Below, piece after piece: positions 52,225 through 64,000 of a DNA stretch of 64,000 nucleotides. Made by a program: the position numbers and the translations under genes. This DNA is from an uncultured Ignavibacteriota bacterium. GTDB lineage: Bacteria > Bacteroidota > Ignavibacteria > UBA10030 > UBA8401. The stretch's first letter is position 1. Each line of letters opens with the position of its first letter. The stretch spans positions 124,001 to 188,000 of the forward strand of contig CAISDA010000083.1 in assembly GCA_903884005.1 (NCBI GenBank). Reading direction: 5' to 3'. The notes beneath the pieces were generated by a model. It made no database searches, was not told the DNA's origin, and saw nothing but the letters and a program-made list of their open reading frames with translations.

Positions 52225-52557
52225 ATGAAGTTCGAAGTTACCAAAAATGCGAACAGCGTTGTGCTCGTTGTCAAAGAACGGAAACTGGACGTGTCGGTGT
52301 CTCCGGAACTGAAGGGAGAATTCATTCTCCTCTGCCGGCCGACGGTGAAAACTCTGATCGTGGATTTGGGTGACGTCGAATTTTGCGACAGCTCGGGACT
52401 CAGTGCGCTGCTCATTGCCGAACGGCTCATGCGCCAGCAAGGCGGCAAAGTCAAACTCGTGGGCGTGCACAAAAAAGTGCTGTCGCTGCTGAAAATCTCA
52501 CAGCTCGACAAGGTCTTCCCCGTGTTCGAGACTGTCGCAAAAGCCGAAAAGAATTGA
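52225..52557 (+). CDS. STAS-domain anti-sigma-factor antagonist-like protein
   Basis: 110 residues, one STAS domain. The phospho-acceptor motif DSSGLSALL gives Ser56 as the likely target (the same place as in SpoIIAA and RsbV). TGGAGGA stands just before the ATG. In partner switches the unphosphorylated antagonist binds the RsbW-like kinase and frees its other client. A kinase (55135) and a PP2C phosphatase (61961) are encoded downstream, so the three parts of a switch lie within 11 kb, split only by a symporter gene and the Pel-like genes. Confidence 0.88.
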   Translation: MKFEVTKNANSVVLVVKERKLDVSVSPELKGEFILLCRPTVKTLIVDLGDVEFCDSSGLSALLIAERLMRQQGGKVKLVGVHKKVLSLLKISQLDKVFPVFETVAKAEKN

Positions 52558-54223: not shown

Positions 54224-55105
54224 GTGCGCACCCTGAGTCCATACCCATTGCATATAGTTTACGGTCTCTCACTCGTCCTCATCTCCTTGTGGTCAATCGG
54301 CTGTGGGCACACACCGGCACCGAAGCCGATGAGTACTCGTGCGGCAGTCGGCGGCGTTCAACGCTTCGGCGTCCAATTTTCGGGCGAGTACAAGCTGGCG
54401 GAGATGGCGCGGTACCAGATGATGTTCCTCGATCCCGATCAGGCGGGCATTCACGACGCCGATTCGATCACCGCACGCGGAGGGCTTCCGGTCGCCTATC
54501 TCAATATCGGCGAGGCAGAAGCATACCGGTGGTTTTATGCGGAGATTCTCAAGGAGTGGATGCTGGCACCCAATCCGAATTGGAAGGACCATTTTTACAT
54601 CGATGTGAATAAACCGGAATGGCACGCGCTGCTGCTCCGTAAAGTGCTTCCGGCAATTTTTCAAAAAGGGTTCAGCGGTGTGTTCCTGGATATGGTGGAT
54701 GTCTCCAGCCCCGACTTGTATCCCATGCTTCAGCCCGGTGTGATATCGCTGATACGCGAGATACGCGAAGCGTATCCGGCGAAAATCATCATCATGAACA
54801 ACGGCACATGTATTGCCGGCGCGGTGAGCGAGCTCATCGACGGCATCGTCGTGGAAAGTGTGTTCGCCACCTATGATTTCGCCTCCAAGACGTATATGCC
54901 CGTCAATGCCGGTGCTTCGGCAGCCCGATGCGCCGAATTACAGCTGTTGATGAAATCAACCGGCATGAAAATTTTCGCCATCGACTATGCACAGCCCGGC
55001 GACACGCTGACGGCGCTCTTGGCCGCTCAGAAGTCGTCACAACAGGGATTTTTACCGTTCGTCAGTACGATCGAATTAAACGCATTGCCGAAACCACTTC
55101 ACTGA
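54224..55105 (+). CDS. TM1410/GH114-like lipoprotein glycoside hydrolase
   Basis: 293 residues, GTG start at 54224, lipobox Cys27 in WSIGC. The mature part is a TIM-barrel-like domain of the TM1410/GH114 type: PVAYLNIGEAEAYRW near 90, NPNWKDHFYIDVNKPEWH, then GVFLDMVDV with Asp156 and DGIVVESVF with Glu211. The Asp-Glu spacing (about 55) is close to that I recall for the acid/nucleophile pair of GH114 endo-alpha-1,4-galactosaminidases and of the PelA hydrolase domain (about 58). It would cut Pel-like aminosugar polymer outside the inner membrane. First gene of the operon. Confidence 0.75.
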   Translation: MRTLSPYPLHIVYGLSLVLISLWSIGCGHTPAPKPMSTRAAVGGVQRFGVQFSGEYKLAEMARYQMMFLDPDQAGIHDADSITARGGLPVAYLNIGEAEAYRWFYAEILKEWMLAPNPNWKDHFYIDVNKPEWHALLLRKVLPAIFQKGFSGVFLDMVDVSSPDLYPMLQPGVISLIREIREAYPAKIIIMNNGTCIAGAVSELIDGIVVESVFATYDFASKTYMPVNAGASAARCAELQLLMKSTGMKIFAIDYAQPGDTLTALLAAQKSSQQGFLPFVSTIELNALPKPLH

Positions 55106-55134
55106 CAACCCCTTACGATTGATTGGCGGCCGGT

Positions 55135-55548
55135 ATGGATGCACGTTCATCATTTCTTTGCACTCCCGATAAGGTCAAAGATGTCCGCGACTGGATCGCC
55201 GCCTCGCTCGTCGGCCATGCGGTAGACTCGGAGATCATCACGAAAATATTGCTGGCCGCGAGCGAGGCGATCACCAATTGCGTCGTGCACGCCTATAAAG
55301 CCACGCGTGAAGGAAGAGTGGATGTCGCCATCCGCTTCAAGGACGGCGAGGTCGAGCTGACGGTGCGCGACTACGGATCGGGACTGCGGATGGAACAGTA
55401 CGACACGCCCGATACCGAAAAAGCCTCGGAGGGCGGCTACGGCATTTATTTAATCAGATCGCTCATGGACGATGTGCAGCTCGTGCCGCATACCGATGGG
55501 ACGGAATTGACAATGCGCATTTCTACGGAGCCCGCACGCACACCATGA
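55135..55548 (+). CDS. RsbW-like serine-protein kinase (anti-sigma-factor type)
   Basis: 137 residues from ATG 55135; a TTG at 55123 is possible but less likely. HATPase_c_2 fold: N-box E44AITN48, G1 motif D79YGSG83, and Gly-rich GGYGIYLIRSLMD (100-112). These are the residues of RsbW/SpoIIAB kinases, which phosphorylate a STAS antagonist. The ATGA at 55545-55548 joins its stop to the first pelF-like start, so kinase and glycosyltransferase are translationally coupled. No sigma factor is near, so the client could be a Pel protein. This is the key oddity of the operon. Confidence 0.9.
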   Translation: MDARSSFLCTPDKVKDVRDWIAASLVGHAVDSEIITKILLAASEAITNCVVHAYKATREGRVDVAIRFKDGEVELTVRDYGSGLRMEQYDTPDTEKASEGGYGIYLIRSLMDDVQLVPHTDGTELTMRISTEPARTP

Positions 55549-56750
55549 CCGATATCTGTCTTCTGCTCGAGGGAACATATCCGTATAAAACAGGCGGCGT
55601 ATCCGCCTGGGTCGATACGCTGGTGAAAGGCCTGCCGGAACTGAGCTTTTCTGTCGCCCATTTGTATTACGGCCAGGAGCCGACACGCGTTCGCTATCAG
55701 TCTACCGCCAACATGCTTGGCACGACCGCCATTTCGCTCAACGCCTCGCCCGGCTCATCACCCCTGACAATCGCCCTCGATACGCTGCTGGACCAAATCC
55801 CGCGTGCGCGAATTTATCATGCGCTGTCCACTGGGTTTGCAGGATATCTGGGAACCGCCCTTAAGCGATCCCGCACCGGCGCGTTTATTGTGACAGAACA
55901 TGGACTGTATTGGCGTGAAGCGGAATTAGGCGTCGGCGAATTGGAATGCGGATTCAAGATCGTCGATACCCAGTCGGGCTCGCTGCATTTGGGCAGGACC
56001 TGGAGCAGCTGGAGTGACACGTTCCGCACACTGGCCGTCGACGCATATGGGGCAGCCGATGCGATCACGACCGTTTGTGAATTCAACCGGCGCCAACAGC
56101 TCGCCTTGGGGGCACAGGAGGATAAATCGACCGTCATCGCCAACGGCACAGTGATGCCTGCGGCACACGCTGTGCGATCAATCGCCGGCATCGCGGATGC
56201 GCACATTGCGCTCGTGGGCCGCGTGGCACCGCTGAAGGACATTAAGACATTCATCCGCGCATGCGCTTATGCGCAAGAGTTCATACCTCGCGCGCGCTGG
56301 TCGGTGATCGGGCCGACAGACCACGACCCGCAGTACTTTCAGGAATGCATGGCGCTCGCAGATTCGCTCTCGCTCGCACATTTCTCTTTCATCGGCGAGG
56401 TCCCGATGTACGAGTGGTATCCTCGCATCGATGCGGTTGTCTTGACAAGTGCAAGCGAAGCCCAGCCGCTGGCGCTCCTGGAGGCCATGGCCAACTCCAT
56501 ACCCGTCGTCTCAACAGACGTGGGAGGCGTTGCGGAGCTTGTGACGCCCGAGGGAATGGCGCACGGAGGACTCCTCTGCCCACCGTCCGATCCGGACGCA
56601 TGCGCGCAAGCCATCGTGCGGCTGCTGACCGATCCGGAACTCTACGCCGCGTGTTCGGCGGCCGGGCGGCGCATCGTGGAACGAAGCCATGACAGCAATG
56701 GTATGATCGATTCATACAGAACATTATACAGACGATTTCTTTTCGAATGA
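55545..56750 (+). CDS. PelF-like GT4 glycosyltransferase, first copy
   Basis: 401 residues. The N-terminus DICLLLEGTYPYKTGGVSAWVDTLV is the PelF hallmark; later VGRVAPLKDIKTFIRAC near 223 and the E-x7-E pair SEAQPLALLEAM near 304 with PVVSTDVGGVAELV. PelF makes the Pel polymer from UDP-sugars in the cytoplasm. At 401 residues it is about 100 shorter than Pseudomonas PelF (about 507) and than its neighbour; the missing part lies in the central N-domain region. Start overlaps the kinase stop. Confidence 0.88.
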   Translation: MTDICLLLEGTYPYKTGGVSAWVDTLVKGLPELSFSVAHLYYGQEPTRVRYQSTANMLGTTAISLNASPGSSPLTIALDTLLDQIPRARIYHALSTGFAGYLGTALKRSRTGAFIVTEHGLYWREAELGVGELECGFKIVDTQSGSLHLGRTWSSWSDTFRTLAVDAYGAADAITTVCEFNRRQQLALGAQEDKSTVIANGTVMPAAHAVRSIAGIADAHIALVGRVAPLKDIKTFIRACAYAQEFIPRARWSVIGPTDHDPQYFQECMALADSLSLAHFSFIGEVPMYEWYPRIDAVVLTSASEAQPLALLEAMANSIPVVSTDVGGVAELVTPEGMAHGGLLCPPSDPDACAQAIVRLLTDPELYAACSAAGRRIVERSHDSNGMIDSYRTLYRRFLFE

Positions 56751-56754
56751 AACG

Positions 56755-58287
56755 ATGAAAGCACTTAAGCCCCTTTCCGTACTCCTGGTCACCGAAGGCA
56801 CGTATCCGTACGTTGGCGGCGGCGTGAGTACGTGGTGCGACAGCCTCGTGAGAGAATTGAAGTCCGTCCATTTTTCAATCCTCGCCGTGACCGGCACACC
56901 CATTACGACGATGAAATATGTGCTGCCGTCAAACGTGAGGCACTTGCGTCAGGTGCCGCTGTGGGGCAGCGAAGAACCGTCGGAGTATATCCTTCCCGAA
57001 CGGTCGTTCGCCGATACGTATACGAACCGGACTGAAACAACGGACCAGATGGTGGGCAAATATTTCATACCCATTTTCGAGGATCTTCTGGAAGATCTTG
57101 TCAACCCGAACAAAAATGCTCCTCACCCGGAAGTGATACATCGGCTGTATAAATATTTTCGGCGCTTTGAATACAAAACGACGTTCCGATCTCGTCTGAC
57201 ATGGGAGACGTTCCGCGCGATGTTGCTGCGAACCGCGGGCCAATGGAGCGACATCGCCGAAGAACAACCCAACCTGTTCGATGTCATCACGGCGCTCCGG
57301 TGGCTCTACAGTTTCCTGCTGCCGCTGAGCGTTGCGCTGCCGAGAACCGACATCGCGCATGCGACACTGGCGAGTCCGTCGTGTCTCGCAGTGGTCGCGG
57401 CCAAATATGAGTTCGGCGCGGCGGTCGTTGTTACCGATCACGGCATCTTCATACGCGAACGCTACATTGCCCTTTCGGCCGAAACGTTCAGCAGATTTTC
57501 AAAACGGTTTCTGCTGAATTTGTCTGCGTACGCAAGCCGCGTGATCTACGCCTGCGCCGACCAGATCTCGCCTGTCTGCGATTACAACCATCGGTGGGAA
57601 TTGCGCTTCGGAGGGTCGGCTGACCGCATCAAGACGATCTATAACGGCATCGACCCGGGTGTGTTCACCCCGCGCGAGAAGCCGGAAAAGACGCGCAATC
57701 GTCCGACGGTGGTCGCGGTAGCGCGCATTTTTCCGCTGAAGGACATCGAAACAATGATCCGGTCCTGTGCTGCGGCGCGGGAGGAAATTCCCGATATTCA
57801 GTACATCGTGTACGGTCCAACGGACGTCGATCTGCCCTATACACAAAAATGCCGGCAGTTGATCGACGAGCATTCACTGCAGCAGCATTTTATGTTCGGC
57901 GGATTCCATCCCAAACCGCACGAAGTGTATAACGAAGGCGACATCAGCATTCTCTCGAGCATCTCGGAAGGGTTCCCGTATACGGTCATCGAGTCGATGG
58001 CGTGTGCGCGGCCTGTCGTTTCGACCGACGTAGGCGGAGTGCCGGAGGCACTCGAGGGATTCGGGATCATGGCTCGTCCCCGCGATTTCACCAGCCTCGC
58101 GCAGGGCGTTGTACAATTGCTCCGCGACCATGAACTCCGCCAGGGGCTCGGAAAAATTTCACGCGACCGCGTGCTTCTCCGGTTCAGAACCACGCTGGCC
58201 ATGACCCAATACATGCAGTCGTATCTCGCCTTGAGCGGCAGACAGGCGCAGGACGTTCCCGCCGGCGCTCAAGGGGCATATGCATAA
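56755..58287 (+). CDS. PelF-like GT4 glycosyltransferase, second copy
   Basis: 510 residues, the size of classical PelF. It starts LSVLLVTEGTYPYVGGGVSTWCDSLV, has the insert typical of PelF, then AVARIFPLKDIETMIRSC near 320 and the E-x7-E pair SEGFPYTVIESM near 403, PVVSTDVGGVPEAL. It lies 4 bases after the first copy and overlaps the PelG-like gene by 8 bases. Two PelF-type enzymes in tandem suggest two sugars or a catalytic/regulatory pair. Confidence 0.9.
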   Translation: MKALKPLSVLLVTEGTYPYVGGGVSTWCDSLVRELKSVHFSILAVTGTPITTMKYVLPSNVRHLRQVPLWGSEEPSEYILPERSFADTYTNRTETTDQMVGKYFIPIFEDLLEDLVNPNKNAPHPEVIHRLYKYFRRFEYKTTFRSRLTWETFRAMLLRTAGQWSDIAEEQPNLFDVITALRWLYSFLLPLSVALPRTDIAHATLASPSCLAVVAAKYEFGAAVVVTDHGIFIRERYIALSAETFSRFSKRFLLNLSAYASRVIYACADQISPVCDYNHRWELRFGGSADRIKTIYNGIDPGVFTPREKPEKTRNRPTVVAVARIFPLKDIETMIRSCAAAREEIPDIQYIVYGPTDVDLPYTQKCRQLIDEHSLQQHFMFGGFHPKPHEVYNEGDISILSSISEGFPYTVIESMACARPVVSTDVGGVPEALEGFGIMARPRDFTSLAQGVVQLLRDHELRQGLGKISRDRVLLRFRTTLAMTQYMQSYLALSGRQAQDVPAGAQGAYA

Positions 58288-59983
58288 TGATTCTACCACG
58301 ATCCGATTATTGAACGGAATGACCGAGACAACAGCAACCGACATACAGCTACCGGCAGCGGACGATGCGGCCTCCATGCTTCGCTCCAAGCACAAAGTGC
58401 TTGCCGAACATGAGGTCGAACTGGCTCGCGAAGTGTTCACGCTCATCGGCGAACCGCTGGATGTCTGGGCCGTGGCCGCAACGCTCGAGAGCATCGGCCT
58501 GCGCGATCTCGATGCGGTGACGTTATACCAGCGCCCGAACCTCTTCACGCTCGCGGAGCGTATTCTCTATCTGATACACGTTGATCCGACGCGGACGCGA
58601 TCCCGTGAGGAGCTTCCTCCGGTTCGCACGCGCGAGACCCATATGGCGCAGGCGCTCAAATTTTATTTGCGCGGCGCTTCGACAGCGCTGCCAATGGCGG
58701 GGCAAATTGCGTCGGTATTGCTGCTGCGCTATTCGCTGTGGGCATGGGTGGATTTCACCGAATCGCAGGCAACGGTGGTCACCATCGGAACCATCCTGAG
58801 CTTCATCATTACGGCCGGCTTTATTCAATCAATCGGCCGTGAAGGTTCCCGGTATATGGGCCATAAAAACTATTTTCTGGCTCACAAAATATCGATGACG
58901 ATCGTCCGCGCCGGCACGGCGTCGGTTGTGCTCTTCGGCGTATTTTTGTACACACTGAATCTCGTCTTCCCCTATTACGACGAACGGCTGATGATCATCA
59001 GCCTTATGTATTATTTTTTCCTCTCGGAACTATGGCTCTTCTCGTCGCTGGCGTACGTGCTCGGCAAAGTGTTCGCCGTCTTCGTGTGCACGACGCTTGG
59101 CGTTGTGCCGGTCTACTTCGTGATGGAGTATACACGCTTCGGCATTTATGCGGCCCATGCGTCGGGCATGGCAACGGCTATTCTCGCCATGGCGGTCTAT
59201 ACTGTCGCAACGCTGCGGCGCATGGCGCACAAAACGGACGCAGCCCTGAGGACGAGCAGGCTTCCCCACGCACCGGTGCGCACATACTTGGTCGCTCCGT
59301 ATTTTATCTATGGCCTGCTGTATTTCCTCAATCTCTTTATCGACAGGATCGTCAGCTGGTCTGCACCCAACCCGGAACCGCTCCCCTATGTGATCTGGTT
59401 CAGAACGTCATACGAATTGGGAATGGACTGGGCGCTGCTCTCGCTTGTGTTGACACTCGCCACCATGGAATACATCATTCACGAATTTTCATTTCATCAG
59501 GTGCCAAAGCAGCGCAGCATCCGCAACGACGATGTGCACGACTATATCACATTCTACAAGCGCTTTTATGTCAAGCATCTCATCGCGATCGTTCTCCTTG
59601 GTCTGTTCAGCATTGTCGCATGCTACTTCGGCGTCCTCTCGCTGCGGCGATTCGATTATATACTCGAAGTCAGGGAATTTTTCAGCAGTCCGGTCACATT
59701 TCACGTATTTTGGGCCGCGGCATTCGGATATTATTTTACCGCGCTCGGTTTGTACAATTGTCTTTTTTTCTTTACCTTATCGCGTCCTGAATTCGCGATC
59801 CGCTCCATCACCGCAGGACTGGCTGCCAATGTCGTGGTCAGCCTCGTGCTGAGCCGTTGGGTCCAGTATGAATACGGCGTGGGTGGGCTCATCGTCGGGG
59901 GAATCGTGTTTGCCGCGATGACAATGCAGTATGCATTTAAATTCTTCGACCGGCTCGATTACTATTATTATGCGGCATACTAA
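58280..59983 (+). CDS. PelG-like MOP-superfamily exporter with N-terminal extension
   Basis: 567 residues. About 12 transmembrane helices begin near residue 130; the pattern (QIASVLLLRYSLWAWVDFTESQATVV, TAGFIQSIGREGSRYMGHKNYFLAHKIS in sequence order) is that of PelG, the inner-membrane transporter of Pel. Pseudomonas PelG has about 456 residues, so roughly 110-120 N-terminal residues are extra; they are charged and helical (VLAEHEVELAREVFTLIGEP) and could dock the glycosyltransferases or the kinase. Confidence 0.85.
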   Translation: MHNDSTTIRLLNGMTETTATDIQLPAADDAASMLRSKHKVLAEHEVELAREVFTLIGEPLDVWAVAATLESIGLRDLDAVTLYQRPNLFTLAERILYLIHVDPTRTRSREELPPVRTRETHMAQALKFYLRGASTALPMAGQIASVLLLRYSLWAWVDFTESQATVVTIGTILSFIITAGFIQSIGREGSRYMGHKNYFLAHKISMTIVRAGTASVVLFGVFLYTLNLVFPYYDERLMIISLMYYFFLSELWLFSSLAYVLGKVFAVFVCTTLGVVPVYFVMEYTRFGIYAAHASGMATAILAMAVYTVATLRRMAHKTDAALRTSRLPHAPVRTYLVAPYFIYGLLYFLNLFIDRIVSWSAPNPEPLPYVIWFRTSYELGMDWALLSLVLTLATMEYIIHEFSFHQVPKQRSIRNDDVHDYITFYKRFYVKHLIAIVLLGLFSIVACYFGVLSLRRFDYILEVREFFSSPVTFHVFWAAAFGYYFTALGLYNCLFFFTLSRPEFAIRSITAGLAANVVVSLVLSRWVQYEYGVGGLIVGGIVFAAMTMQYAFKFFDRLDYYYYAAY

Positions 59984-59989
59984 CGGACG

Positions 59990-61948
59990 ATGACCGACTA
60001 TCATACCATATTGATCCTCTCGATACTCAGACTGCTCCTGGCCTGCGGTATTCTTTTCACAATCATGCCCGCGCTCCTGTTCCCGCCCTTTCCGTCGAAG
60101 AGCGCGATGGAACGGTTTATCGGCATGGGCCTCTATATGGCCGGCATGACGATGGTCTTTATGCACGGGTTCGTCCTGCTTAAATTGAATGATAATATCG
60201 CCGTTCTCATTATCATCATATGGTTCATCGCATTCAAATGGTGGAACATCTACCGGCGTCAGCATGTGGGGCTGGTGCTGATCAAGGCGGTTCTCCTGCG
60301 GTGGATAGAGATCCTGGCGCGTCCGTCGACATTGAAACGGTTGGGCACCAGTCTCGGCGATTTTGGAAAACGCAAGATGATGATGCGTATGACGTACGGC
60401 GTCGCATTCATCTCGATCATCGCCGCAAGCGTGGCCCTTCGGATCGGGCCAATTTGGAACCACCCCGCGCCGCTCTCGAGTGAATATTATGAAACCCTTG
60501 AACATGTAAAACATTTGCAGATCAATGAAATGTACCGGGGAGGCAGTCATATTCCCATCGGGATGCCGATCCTGATCAGCGCCTTGTGCACTGTGTCGCA
60601 GGTGAATCCAACTCTTGCCGTGCATTTCTTCGGCATCATCTCTGCGATCCTCTTGTGCGCCTCCATTTTTTTCAGCGTCTACGCCGCTACACGCAACGGC
60701 ATCGAGGCGGCCCTGGCCTCCATCATTTTCGCCGTCGCCTATGGCATGCTGCCGGGATCGGTGGATCACCAAATTGAGGCCGACAGCATGACGCTGGCCG
60801 TTGTGTTCTTGCTCCCCTCGCTGGTGTTTTTCATCAACTTTGTGACGCACGGCGGGCGCGCCCGTCTCGTTGCATCGATACTGGGACTTGTCGCCGTCGC
60901 ATCGATCAATCTGTTTGCCGGCTGTATCGGCATCGCTGCGGCAACGGTCATTCTGTGCTCGTCATTCTTCATACTGCCCTCCATGCCGAGACTGCGCTCC
61001 CGGTTGTTGCTCATCAACGTCGCGAGCACGGCAGCCGCTCTCACAGCGATCGGAGTGTGCTGGATGTTCGTGTCGAACGATCGATCCGCTCAGAACGTGC
61101 TGAACGTTATTTTTTATGATCAGCATTTCTATCGTTACGCGCTGACCGAGAAGCTCCGTGTCGCCTCCTTTTGCAGTATGAGCGCGGGAGTATTTCTCGC
61201 GCTTATCGCCTTCAGCATGTACCCTTCAGTGCGGAAACTATGGCATCTCCATCTCATCGGCTGGGGGTTTACGGGCATGCTGCTCCTTGTTTTGGCAACA
61301 CCGGCACTGCTCGGTCTTGACGAGATCATACCAACAGCACAAATTCTCTTCATCCTGTCTGTGGTCGTTGCGCTGGGGATCGGATTGTGCGCCGGCGTCC
61401 TCCTGGATACGATGCAGGGAGCATTGAACACCGTCGTCGTATCGGTGCCGGCGAGACAGTGGATGAGATCGCTCTCAGGCGGGGCCATCATCGCATCCGC
61501 GATCCTCATCTTTCACGGGGCACCGGCTTCGATATTGCAGACAGCGGAACCCGACGGTTTCGTGAGAAACCTGTATATGATAGAACGGACTTATATTCCG
61601 TATCAATGGACTATTGTTGCGCATCGAGGTATATTACTTGCTGGAATGAATCGGGGCCGATTCCTGGATTACGATTATTTTACGGCGCGATACGATCCCG
61701 TCACGTACCGCCATGGAACCAAGGATGCCATCCCTACTGCCCTGGTGTTCATTTTCATCGAGAAGAACAAAGATGTCACGGAAATATCATCGGAGCTCAC
61801 CCCCGTCAATCGCAATGCGATGGCGCAAGCACGGGAATGGTGTGAAACGTATCGAAAGACACACGACGACATGACGGTGTTTTTCAGCGACGATACAATT
61901 ATTATTTATGAACTACGAGACCCGCATGTGCCATCGCTGCGTGTCTAA
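59990..61948 (+). CDS. polytopic membrane protein of the Pel-like operon, unknown
   Basis: 652 residues with about 13-15 transmembrane helices and a C-terminal extracytoplasmic part of about 100 residues. Hydrophilic loops contain HVKHLQINEMYRGGSHIPIGMPILISAL and DQHFYRYALTEKLRVASF, and the helix pattern is like GT-C or polymerase-type membrane proteins, but no catalytic motif is certain. It does not look like PelD or PelE (those have TPR, GAF or GGDEF). It is tightly packed (6 bases after the exporter and 12 before the phosphatase), so it is part of the machine. Confidence 0.7.
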   Translation: MTDYHTILILSILRLLLACGILFTIMPALLFPPFPSKSAMERFIGMGLYMAGMTMVFMHGFVLLKLNDNIAVLIIIIWFIAFKWWNIYRRQHVGLVLIKAVLLRWIEILARPSTLKRLGTSLGDFGKRKMMMRMTYGVAFISIIAASVALRIGPIWNHPAPLSSEYYETLEHVKHLQINEMYRGGSHIPIGMPILISALCTVSQVNPTLAVHFFGIISAILLCASIFFSVYAATRNGIEAALASIIFAVAYGMLPGSVDHQIEADSMTLAVVFLLPSLVFFINFVTHGGRARLVASILGLVAVASINLFAGCIGIAAATVILCSSFFILPSMPRLRSRLLLINVASTAAALTAIGVCWMFVSNDRSAQNVLNVIFYDQHFYRYALTEKLRVASFCSMSAGVFLALIAFSMYPSVRKLWHLHLIGWGFTGMLLLVLATPALLGLDEIIPTAQILFILSVVVALGIGLCAGVLLDTMQGALNTVVVSVPARQWMRSLSGGAIIASAILIFHGAPASILQTAEPDGFVRNLYMIERTYIPYQWTIVAHRGILLAGMNRGRFLDYDYFTARYDPVTYRHGTKDAIPTALVFIFIEKNKDVTEISSELTPVNRNAMAQAREWCETYRKTHDDMTVFFSDDTIIIYELRDPHVPSLRV

Positions 61949-61960
61949 CGGACAAGAGCT

Positions 61961-63511
61961 ATGATCGCCAGTACATTATTACATGATGCAGTGTCACGGT
62001 TTTTACTGAATGTTGCCGCATACACGGGCATACCGTTCTACCTGATGGATCATGAGGGCAATATTGTCGTGCGGACGCCCGCCGGCGAACAGGGCTCCTA
62101 CGCATCCGAGATCGGATTCGGCACGGATCGAAAAATTACGCTGCGCGACAATACGCTGTGGCATCTCTATACGATGGACCACCCGATTCCCGGCACCGAG
62201 ATCCTGCGGGAACAAGTGCTGGACTTTACGGCGGAGGTCATCCTCTTCATTATCACCAATGAAGAGGAAGTGCAGAATCTGGCGACCGAATTGTTGGAGC
62301 GATATCAGGAACTGCACGTCCTGTACGATGTCATCAACGACGTCAGCACGGTGTTGAGCGAAAAAGAGATCTGTATCGCCGTGCTCCGCAAGGCCATGCA
62401 AACGCTGGATGTGGCGAGCGGAGCCGTTGTCTACGTCGATACGAAAGGAAGGCAAGACGTTCATTGCAAACAGGAAGGCGGATACGTCCTGAACGATGAC
62501 AGCCTGATGCGGTACGCCGATCAGGTGCGCGTTTCAAACTCGCACATTATTGTCGAACGAACGCAGACAGAAATGAACGGAGTTGCCGCCCAGTCGCCCG
62601 CAGTGCTCGCCGTTCCGATCGTCGTCAATAACACGTCGATCGGAGCGATGATCGTCACGGCGAAACGAAATGACGGAGACTTTACCTCCGGCGACCGGAT
62701 TTCTCTCTCCGCACTGGCCGGCTATTTGGGCATCGCCATCACATCGGCGCAGCTCATCAAGGAAGCGCACGATGCCGATGCCCTCCGGCGAGAATTCGAC
62801 TTCGCGCGCAAGATTCAACAGAGCCTGTTGCCGAAGCACCTGCCCGAGATCGCTTCGCTCGAGATCGCAGCGCGCTGCATCGCGGCAACCGAAGTGGGCG
62901 GCGATCTGTTTATGTTTCTGCCGACCGGCCCCGGCGAGTGGGCCTTCGGCGTCGCCGATGTCGCCGGGCACGGCCTGGGGGCGGCATTCATTCTTGCATC
63001 GCTTCGCAGCATCCTGCGCTCGGAATGCCGGCGGGGCACGATGCTGGACGAAAGCATTCGAAGCACCAATGATATTCTGTGTGAGGATACGCAGGAAAGT
63101 GAATTGTTCGCAACACTGTTCATGGCCACCTACAACGACACAACGCGCACATTGCGCACGGTCAATGCCGGACACCCTCCCGGCCTGTTGTGGCGGGCTG
63201 CAACACAGTCGATCGAGCAGCTCGAGCACGGCGGCATTGTTGTCGGGTTATTCGTTGACGAGTGTTACGGATATGACGAACTGACACTTGCCCCCGGCGA
63301 CACGCTCGTGATGTATACCGACGGCATCATCGAATGCAAAAACACGGGTGGCGAGCTGTATGGGATCGAGCGGCTGCACGCCTGCTTCGCGCGTCTCGTC
63401 TCCGGGTGCGCCGGAGACGTCCTTCAGGGCATCCTGGACGACATCGGCGATTTTCATCAGGGAGTTCGTATGAATGATGATGTGACAATTGTTGTCGTGA
63501 AGGCACGATAG
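61961..63511 (+). CDS. GAF-SpoIIE (RsbU-like) PP2C phosphatase
   Basis: 516 residues, soluble. N-terminal sensor-like region (about 1-115, with GIPFYLMDHEGNIVVRTPAG), a coiled coil, a GAF domain (about 125-270), then the SpoIIE phosphatase domain (about 280-516) with ARKIQQSLLPK, metal Asp in TEVGGDLFMF and VADVAGHGLGAAF, and MYTDGIIECKN. Such proteins remove phosphate from STAS antagonists, resetting an RsbW switch. It fits the kinase at 55135 and the STAS protein at 52225. The GAF domain may sense a small ligand. Confidence 0.92.
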   Translation: MIASTLLHDAVSRFLLNVAAYTGIPFYLMDHEGNIVVRTPAGEQGSYASEIGFGTDRKITLRDNTLWHLYTMDHPIPGTEILREQVLDFTAEVILFIITNEEEVQNLATELLERYQELHVLYDVINDVSTVLSEKEICIAVLRKAMQTLDVASGAVVYVDTKGRQDVHCKQEGGYVLNDDSLMRYADQVRVSNSHIIVERTQTEMNGVAAQSPAVLAVPIVVNNTSIGAMIVTAKRNDGDFTSGDRISLSALAGYLGIAITSAQLIKEAHDADALRREFDFARKIQQSLLPKHLPEIASLEIAARCIAATEVGGDLFMFLPTGPGEWAFGVADVAGHGLGAAFILASLRSILRSECRRGTMLDESIRSTNDILCEDTQESELFATLFMATYNDTTRTLRTVNAGHPPGLLWRAATQSIEQLEHGGIVVGLFVDECYGYDELTLAPGDTLVMYTDGIIECKNTGGELYGIERLHACFARLVSGCAGDVLQGILDDIGDFHQGVRMNDDVTIVVVKAR

Positions 63512-63592
63512 CGGATACGTGCATCACATGGCGCGCCGTCCCGAGCCGTGCGCAAAGACGGTGAACACATATTGATAGAAGGATTTTTTTCC

Positions 63593-63970
63593 ATGACAAC
63601 AAAAACCATTCTCATCGTCGACGACGACAGCAACATCCGGCGCGTCCTTTCTTTTCTGCTTGAACGCACGGGGTGCAAGGTGTACACCGCCGTGAACGGC
63701 GAAGAAGGCCTGCAGCGCACGCACGAGGTGAAACCGGACCTTGTCATCACCGATGCGATGATGCCGATGAAAGACGGATTCGAACTCTGCCGCGATCTGC
63801 GCAGCGATCCGCAATACGCCGCGTTGAAGATCATTATGCTCACGGCACGGGACCAGGCCACAGGCAGCAATCCGACGCTGGACTTTGGCGCGGATCTCTG
63901 TTTAATGAAACCGTTCAATCCGACGGAAATATTGCGCATTGTAAAAGAAATGCTGCTGCTGCAGCCCTAA
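63593..63970 (+). CDS. single-domain response regulator (CheY-like)
   Basis: 125 residues from ATG 63593. Receiver with DDD at 10-12, phospho-acceptor Asp54 in VITDAMMPMKDG, Thr in MLTARD, and Lys in LMKPFNP. No output domain. It follows the phosphatase by 81 bases and may be the last gene of the operon or start a separate unit; the window ends 30 bases later, so what it works with is not visible. It probably controls the partner switch or another kinase. Confidence 0.92.
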   Translation: MTTKTILIVDDDSNIRRVLSFLLERTGCKVYTAVNGEEGLQRTHEVKPDLVITDAMMPMKDGFELCRDLRSDPQYAALKIIMLTARDQATGSNPTLDFGADLCLMKPFNPTEILRIVKEMLLLQP

Positions 63971-64000
63971 CCGCCCTCCTCCACTTATGGGAAAAAATAT

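Follow-up and report, generated by a model that had tools for sequence, protein, structure and literature searches.

A putative partner switch encoded within a Pel-like polysaccharide operon of Ignavibacteria

Introduction

In a 64,000-nucleotide stretch of the genome of an uncultured Ignavibacteriota bacterium (GCA_903884005.1, contig CAISDA010000083.1, positions 124,001 to 188,000; hereinafter designated the window), the gene for an RsbW/SpoIIAB-type serine kinase overlaps the gene for a PelF-like glycosyltransferase. As a family rule, RsbW-type kinases phosphorylate a serine of a STAS-domain protein and a phosphatase removes the phosphate (PMC8256260). What, then, is the partner of a kinase whose gene is coupled to that of a glycosyltransferase? 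A first-pass annotation of the window took the coupling as a hint that the glycosyltransferase itself could be the client. Here we examine the gene cluster around the kinase, its relatives in other genomes and the candidate partners encoded with it.

Results

A Pel-like operon with embedded regulatory genes

The kinase gene is the second of a co-directional series with the order GH114-kinase-PelF1-PelF2-PelG-membrane protein-PP2C-receiver-GAF/HD-GYP-STAS2-DUF2194. Genes past the window end were read from the next contig stretch (L031) and are numbered as a continuation of the window.

54224–55105, + strand: GH114 (endo-alpha-1,4-polygalactosaminidase-like) protein, first cluster gene (PF03537, 69.3 bits, cut-off 27)
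55135–55548, + strand: RsbW/SpoIIAB-type GHKL serine kinase (ATG start; TTG at 55123 possible)
55545–55548, + strand: ATGA shared by the stop codon of the kinase and the start codon of PelF1
55545–56750, + strand: PelF1, short GT4 PelF paralogue, 401 aa (NF038011, 280.7 bits, cut-off 100)
56755–58287, + strand: PelF2, full-length PelF-type glycosyltransferase, 510 aa (NF038011, 171.7 bits, cut-off 100)
58280–59983, + strand: PelG-like exporter (PF16933, marginal at 29.9 bits against a cut-off of 29)
59990–61948, + strand: multi-spanning membrane protein conserved in the cluster (no Pfam or NCBIfam match)
61961–63511, + strand: GAF-SpoIIE (PP2C) serine phosphatase (PF07228, 167.8 bits; GAF_2, 31.4 bits)
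63593–63970, + strand: stand-alone receiver domain (PF00072, 94.3 bits; upstream start at 63548 possible)
63987–65537 (L031:987–2537), + strand: GAF-HD-GYP protein (PF13487, 71.4 bits, cut-off 27.2)
65550–65897: STAS2, single STAS domain (PF01740, 66.4 bits), 1.55 kb past the window end
65904–69932 (L031:2904–6932): DUF2194-TPR-barrel-like protein, 1342 aa (PF09960, 253.1 bits)

The GAF-HD-GYP gene is cut at the window end, with only 63987–64000 inside, and the STAS2 gene, starting at 65550, lay outside the view of the first-pass annotation. The GH114 protein has a signal-like stretch at its N-terminus (judged by eye), the PelG-like exporter has no NCBIfam match, and the membrane protein, whose orthologue in a relative (G070) is 36% identical, has a low-confidence predicted structure (pLDDT 47). 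The DUF2194 protein of the genome containing the window (G000, 4.5 Mb) also matches TPR_19 (82.7 bits) and, below the cut-off of 27, PgaA_barrel (16.1). In PelF2 the Pfam DUF3492 match spans positions 2–266 of 268. Aligned with it, PelF1 is short of about 95 residues in the DUF3492 region, has TEHGxYWxE in place of TDHGxxxRER and retains the E-x7-E motif; its role could be that of a separate enzyme or of a regulatory subunit.

Compared with known Pel operons (pelABCDEFG; Gram-positive pelDEADAFG), the cluster shares PelF, PelG and GH114, and in G000 and G070 it may also have a counterpart of the PelB-type TPR and outer-membrane barrel protein. It differs in its two PelF paralogues, its DUF2194 protein and the presence within it of genes for a kinase, a PP2C phosphatase, a receiver, an HD-GYP protein and a STAS protein. 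No family match to PelD or PelE was found among the scanned operon proteins, although HMMs are known to miss divergent PelD (PMC7112168).

The kinase resembles anti-sigma kinases

The kinase is a small stand-alone HATPase_c_2 GHKL protein of 137 aa (PF13581, 98.1 bits, cut-off 27.4) that scores below the NCBIfam equivalog cut-offs for RsbW (64.5 of 145) and SpoIIAB (59.8 of 135). Its best PDB sequence match is RsbW 6m36 (E 6.2e-12), and 1til is also matched (E 1.3e-9). The predicted structure (pLDDT 82.8) superimposes on SpoIIAB and RsbW folds with Z 16–17 and rmsd 1.5–2.9 over 104–132 residues, the comparison with 1th8 giving Z 17.4 and 2.3 Å over 127 residues; a fold match to the SiaB-SiaC structure was obtained as well (Z 13.2, 2.8 Å over 127 residues). 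Kinases of the RsbW/SpoIIAB type have a catalytic Glu and a catalytic Asn in the N box that binds ATP, and the corresponding E44 and N48 are invariant in 9/9 aligned kinases.

Of 100 relatives, 94 have kinase matches, and almost none of these carries the operon; G000 itself encodes two other stand-alone RsbW-type kinases. In a kinase tree, with an outgroup of 8 of the 55 distant Clostridia-type loci (28–44% identity) returned by a kinase-only search of genome contigs, the eight pel kinases lie on one side of a weakly supported branch (78/47) and those of G000 and G070 group together (98/91). Synteny makes it likely that the kinases of both kinds of cluster descend from one ancestor; the tree does not show this.

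Two further arrangements of kinase genes were observed. On contig C6 of G000, a second switch (L032:2011–6989) carries PP2C, STAS, kinase and PP2C genes in a row, with no sigma gene among them, and adjoins heptosyltransferase-like and lipid A acyltransferase-like genes (by eye). In G070, GH114 and the kinase occupy one open frame with no intervening stop (L128:5229–6527), and the hydrolase looks exported. A fusion protein was considered in this case but not adopted, since the hydrolase would have to be outside the membrane and the kinase in the cytoplasm, and since an internal GTG start fits the kinase.

The whole module is conserved in order in a few lineages

PelF1 is rare, being present in 2/100 relatives with the genome containing the window counted. 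Searches of wider samples scored few candidates per genome, so that their counts are lower bounds: at least 14 of 391 genomes of the class sample have PelF1 matches, and at least one of 395 genomes of the phylum sample, the window's own, has kinase and PelF1 together. A whole short PelF1 is found in eight of the 14 class-sample genomes, namely G000, G070 and six genomes of one genus (g221), and five genomes of one family (f20) encode full-length PelF only; G553 was left out of the counts, as its contig begins inside PelF1 and the preceding gene is not visible. Within the order of G494, PelF1 matches occur in 7/7 g221 genomes, and 13 genomes of another genus gave weak glycosyltransferase matches or none.

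GH114, kinase and PelF1 stand in the same order in all eight whole clusters, GH114 lying upstream of the kinase each time. The remaining operon genes are co-linear in seven clusters (G000, G070 and five of g221), the eighth, in G516, breaking off within PelG where its contig ends. Identity of the kinase to the window copy falls to about 49% in G070 and 27–31% in the six g221 genomes. In the seven clusters long enough to judge, the position of the receiver gene and its receiver motifs are kept, and the PP2C motifs G-G-D, D..GHG and T-D-G are likewise retained in 7/7. The last operon gene varies in length: in g221 it encodes a DUF2194-like protein alone (about 606 aa; L154:12072–13892), and in G070 a 1323-aa protein with C-terminal likeness to the 1342-aa G000 protein (DUF2194, TPR and barrel-like region), suggesting that in G000 and G070 the protein has gained a fused module for export across the outer membrane. 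In G070, an NAD-dependent epimerase-like ORF (by eye; L128:7740–8650), possibly a sugar-nucleotide supply gene, lies between PelF1 and PelF2.

The reading of the kinase as tied to the Pel-like locus and not to a sigma-factor gene is borne out by these clusters, as it adjoins PelF1 in 8/8 assessable cases, and is further supported by the five f20 PelF loci without PelF1, which give no kinase match. Within about 6–16 kb on the upstream side of these five loci, we found no kinase, STAS, PP2C or HD-GYP match; the neighbours of one of them (L158) are ordinary (penicillin amidase, ABC transporter, MlaD).

Gene overlap is a general feature of these loci

The ATGA overlap itself stands as described in the first-pass annotation: the TGA stop of the kinase occupies 55546–55548 and the ATG of PelF1 starts at 55545, the end of 55552 given there being four bases beyond the kinase stop. 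The two genes overlap in 8/8 assessable genomes with short PelF1, by 4 nt in G000 and G070 and by 8 nt in the six g221 genomes, a count behind which stand three lineages only (G000, G070 and g221). A crude custom gene caller run on about 157 kb of G000 gave 4-nt overlaps in 4 of 95 co-directional pairs, kinase-PelF1 included, and overlaps of any length at 11 of 95 co-directional junctions. With 11/95 junctions overlapping, a single 4-nt overlap is ordinary and says little; the conservation of the kinase-PelF1 overlap exceeds chance.

Where the first-pass annotation went further and read the overlap as a pointer to a glycosyltransferase client, the surrounding genes lend no support. With starts chosen by script, the same kinase gene overlaps GH114 by 4 nt in 6/6 g221 genomes, and the membrane protein and PP2C genes overlap by 4 or 8 nt in 5/5. 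A plasmid search with PelF1 gave 26 records, all below 60% identity; in the four of them whose annotated pel loci were inspected, the preceding gene overlaps pelF by 14, 4, 4 and 4 nt, and no kinase, STAS or PP2C gene is annotated in the surrounding stretches. Overlap of pelF with the gene before it is thus usual and does not mark PelF1 as the partner of the kinase. The operon also encodes its own STAS protein with a conserved serine motif and its own PP2C phosphatase, which are, judging by family membership, the expected substrate and antagonist of an RsbW-type kinase.

STAS2 is joined to an HD-GYP protein in one genus

STAS2 resembles RsbV and SpoIIAA in sequence, accompanies the kinase in 7/7 assessable clusters and keeps its Asp-Ser-Ser motif in all seven. 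In 5/5 assessable g221 genomes (L149, L150, L152, L153 and L154; one genus only), HD-GYP and STAS2 form a single open frame of 682–697 aa. The two domains are connected by a conserved, Cys-rich linker of 72 codons with several CxxC-like motifs. Mean pN/pS in g221 is 0.13 for HD-GYP, 0.12 for the linker and 0.11 for STAS, and the match of the linker to its flanking domains indicates that it is translated; an extra internal start may give a separate STAS protein in this genus. Of the available clues to the output of the module, the fusion is the best, suggesting that the HD-GYP protein is the target of STAS2 or works together with it.

The usual HD-GYP form is HDxGK within the full signature HD...HHExxDGxGYP. 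The proteins here match the HD family and lack an intact HD-GYP signature: the first motif is HDVGM in 7/7, followed by HHE and GYP in G000 and G070 and by HQE and GFP in the other 5/7. Given these odd motifs, a phosphodiesterase output is doubtful there, and by its sequence the protein is as likely to have a PelD-like receptor role as an enzymatic one. Of 11 genomes searched for GGDEF genes, 10 have exactly one, and none was found in G551, which is 78% complete. In seven genomes, about 3 kb or less separates the only detected GGDEF gene from the strongest match to sigma region 3, which is RpoD-like (G000, at C4:87104–89852; G070, G494, G501, G516, G527 and G531).

Alternative partners of the kinase

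Besides STAS2, three candidates for the partner were weighed. The kinase could hold PelF1 inactive by binding it, until unphosphorylated STAS2 takes up the kinase and PelF1 is released in the way a sigma factor would be. The kinase gene is directly upstream of PelF1 and overlaps it in 8/8 assessable clusters; the epimerase-like insertion in G070 fell after PelF1 and left the pair unbroken; whole PelF1 occurs only with the kinase in the class sample, the five f20 PelF-only loci having neither; the operon has an intact PelF2 in addition to the shortened paralogue PelF1; and it contains no sigma gene. However, with synteny of the whole operon conserved, the placing of any single pair carries little weight, the kinase overlaps GH114 as well (6/6 g221 genomes), pelF overlaps its predecessor in 4/4 ordinary pel loci, and only three lineages are involved. 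We consider PelF1 an unlikely client, kept in view by its shortened form and its fixed neighbour. A broader variant, in which a GAF-HD-GYP-STAS protein would replace PelD in a PelD-less Pel-type synthase and the kinase would act as an anti-synthase on PelF1, removed by unphosphorylated STAS, so that a glycosyltransferase would take the role of the sigma factor in partner switching, appears unlikely too.

Alternatively, the kinase might be a true anti-sigma factor whose sigma factor (FliA/WhiG-like, ECF or RpoD) is encoded elsewhere, so that the switch would act on transcription. Its fold matches anti-sigma kinases, Chlamydia RsbW targets the housekeeping sigma factor (PMC8256260), and all eight genomes encode a 246–265-aa sigma factor with partial likeness to SigB/F/G (100–129 bits), which in G000, the one copy of the eight so classified, is FliA/WhiG (229.2 bits, cut-off 189.6). 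Against this, Pfam and NCBIfam detect no sigma family among the operon proteins, a SigB/F/G match above cut-off occurs in 0/8 genomes, and the other RsbW-type kinases (two in G000, with matches in 94/100 relatives) could serve the FliA-like sigma factor instead; this explanation is likewise unlikely. G000 has 12 sigma region-2 matches in all, and on its contig C79 a protein adjoining the FliA/WhiG-like sigma gene (L037:4351–5040) combines an HDOD-like N-terminal part (by eye) with a C-terminal match to the region-4 end of the FliA family. Least probable is a partnership with the STAS protein encoded inside the window (52225–52557), in which case STAS2 would serve another kinase. That gene, which lies just upstream of one for an SSS transporter, is nearer to the kinase (2.6 kb upstream) and keeps Asp-Ser-Ser-Gly, but no second copy was found beside the other clusters, in which its matches prove to be STAS2 itself (about 0.8 kb upstream being checked in G501), and it is STAS2 that travels with the kinase in 7/7 assessable clusters.

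Discussion

We propose, with a probability of about 0.62, that the kinase is part of a self-contained partner switch within a Pel-like operon, acting through STAS2 and the HD-GYP protein. STAS2, encoded towards the downstream end of this operon, would be the most likely substrate of the kinase, and the GAF-PP2C enzyme, with the lone receiver domain as its likely input, would strip the phosphate from it. The phosphorylation state of STAS2 would decide its docking on the GAF-HD-GYP protein, which, as a phosphodiesterase or, where its motif is degenerate, as a c-di-GMP receptor, would relay the signal to the PelF/PelG machinery and take the place of PelD. The ATGA overlap would then be ordinary translational coupling that ties the output of the kinase and PelF1 genes together.

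This STAS2-centred proposal is favoured because G000, G070 and five g221 genomes have the complete module in the same gene order, because the kinase Glu and Asn, the STAS2 Asp-Ser-Ser and the PP2C motifs are invariant, because HD-GYP and STAS2 share one translated frame in 5/5 assessable g221 genomes, because the STAS gene at 52225 has no second copy near the other clusters, and because the kinase is nearest to SpoIIAB/RsbW and STAS2 to their STAS partners. Known STAS-controlled c-di-GMP enzymes, discussed below, serve as precedents. Counting against it, the kinase gene lies about 10 kb from STAS2 yet touches PelF1 in 8/8 clusters, the fusion is confined to one genus, the HD-GYP motifs are odd, and a single clade of pel kinases has weak branch support. 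The sequences themselves show the domain content, the operon order, the conservation, the Ser motif and the fusion, whereas the phosphorylation, the direction of control, the HD-GYP protein as output and the replacement of PelD are what we infer.

The operon has in common with SpoIIAA-SpoIIAB-SigF and RsbV-RsbW-SigB the kinase fold, a STAS partner with a serine motif and a PP2C phosphatase, but it contains no sigma gene and its kinase falls below the RsbW and SpoIIAB equivalog cut-offs. Closer in layout are the Hsb and Bgr systems, of which HsbR contains a receiver domain and Bgr is linked to polysaccharide. In both HptB-HsbR-HsbA-HsbD and BgrSTUWV-BgrR, a kinase, a phosphatase and a STAS protein are combined and phosphorylation controls a c-di-GMP enzyme (PMC8457831). 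By contrast, the c-di-GMP-type protein here is a GAF-HD-GYP protein and not a GGDEF cyclase, STAS is fused to it in one genus, and the switch genes form part of a Pel-like operon. SiaABCD of Pseudomonas aeruginosa differs in that SiaC is a DUF1987 protein phosphorylated on Thr and SiaD is a cyclase, and to our knowledge it does not lie within a polysaccharide operon. It nevertheless sets a phosphatase, a kinase and a STAS-like partner on a c-di-GMP enzyme, and control of such enzymes by STAS or STAS-like partners is described for HsbA-HsbD, BgrV-BgrR and SiaC-SiaD alike (PMC8457831). SypA-SypE of Vibrio fischeri and HmpUVW of Nostoc are further cases in which a STAS protein and an RsbW-like kinase are encoded with polysaccharide functions, although those polysaccharide loci are unrelated and the accessible portion of the source describes no HD-GYP partner for them (PMC8256260).

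The switch thus probably works like Hsb, Bgr and Sia, the new elements being an HD-GYP output, the STAS fusion in one genus and the embedding in a polysaccharide operon. Our literature search, which took in little of the subscription literature, found no partner switch within a pel operon and no HD-GYP-STAS partner switch. Pel synthesis is gated by the binding of c-di-GMP to PelD, whose GGDEF domain is degenerate (PMC7112168), and the operon bears on how pel loci without a PelD receptor domain are gated, a question posed for streptococci (PMC7112168). It is also compact enough to test by what route a STAS switch may reach a polysaccharide machine without a sigma factor, as has been asked for SypA and HmpV (PMC8256260): a whole partner switch with a GAF-HD-GYP protein partnered with or fused to STAS, in genomes of which 10 of 11 have a single detected GGDEF gene.
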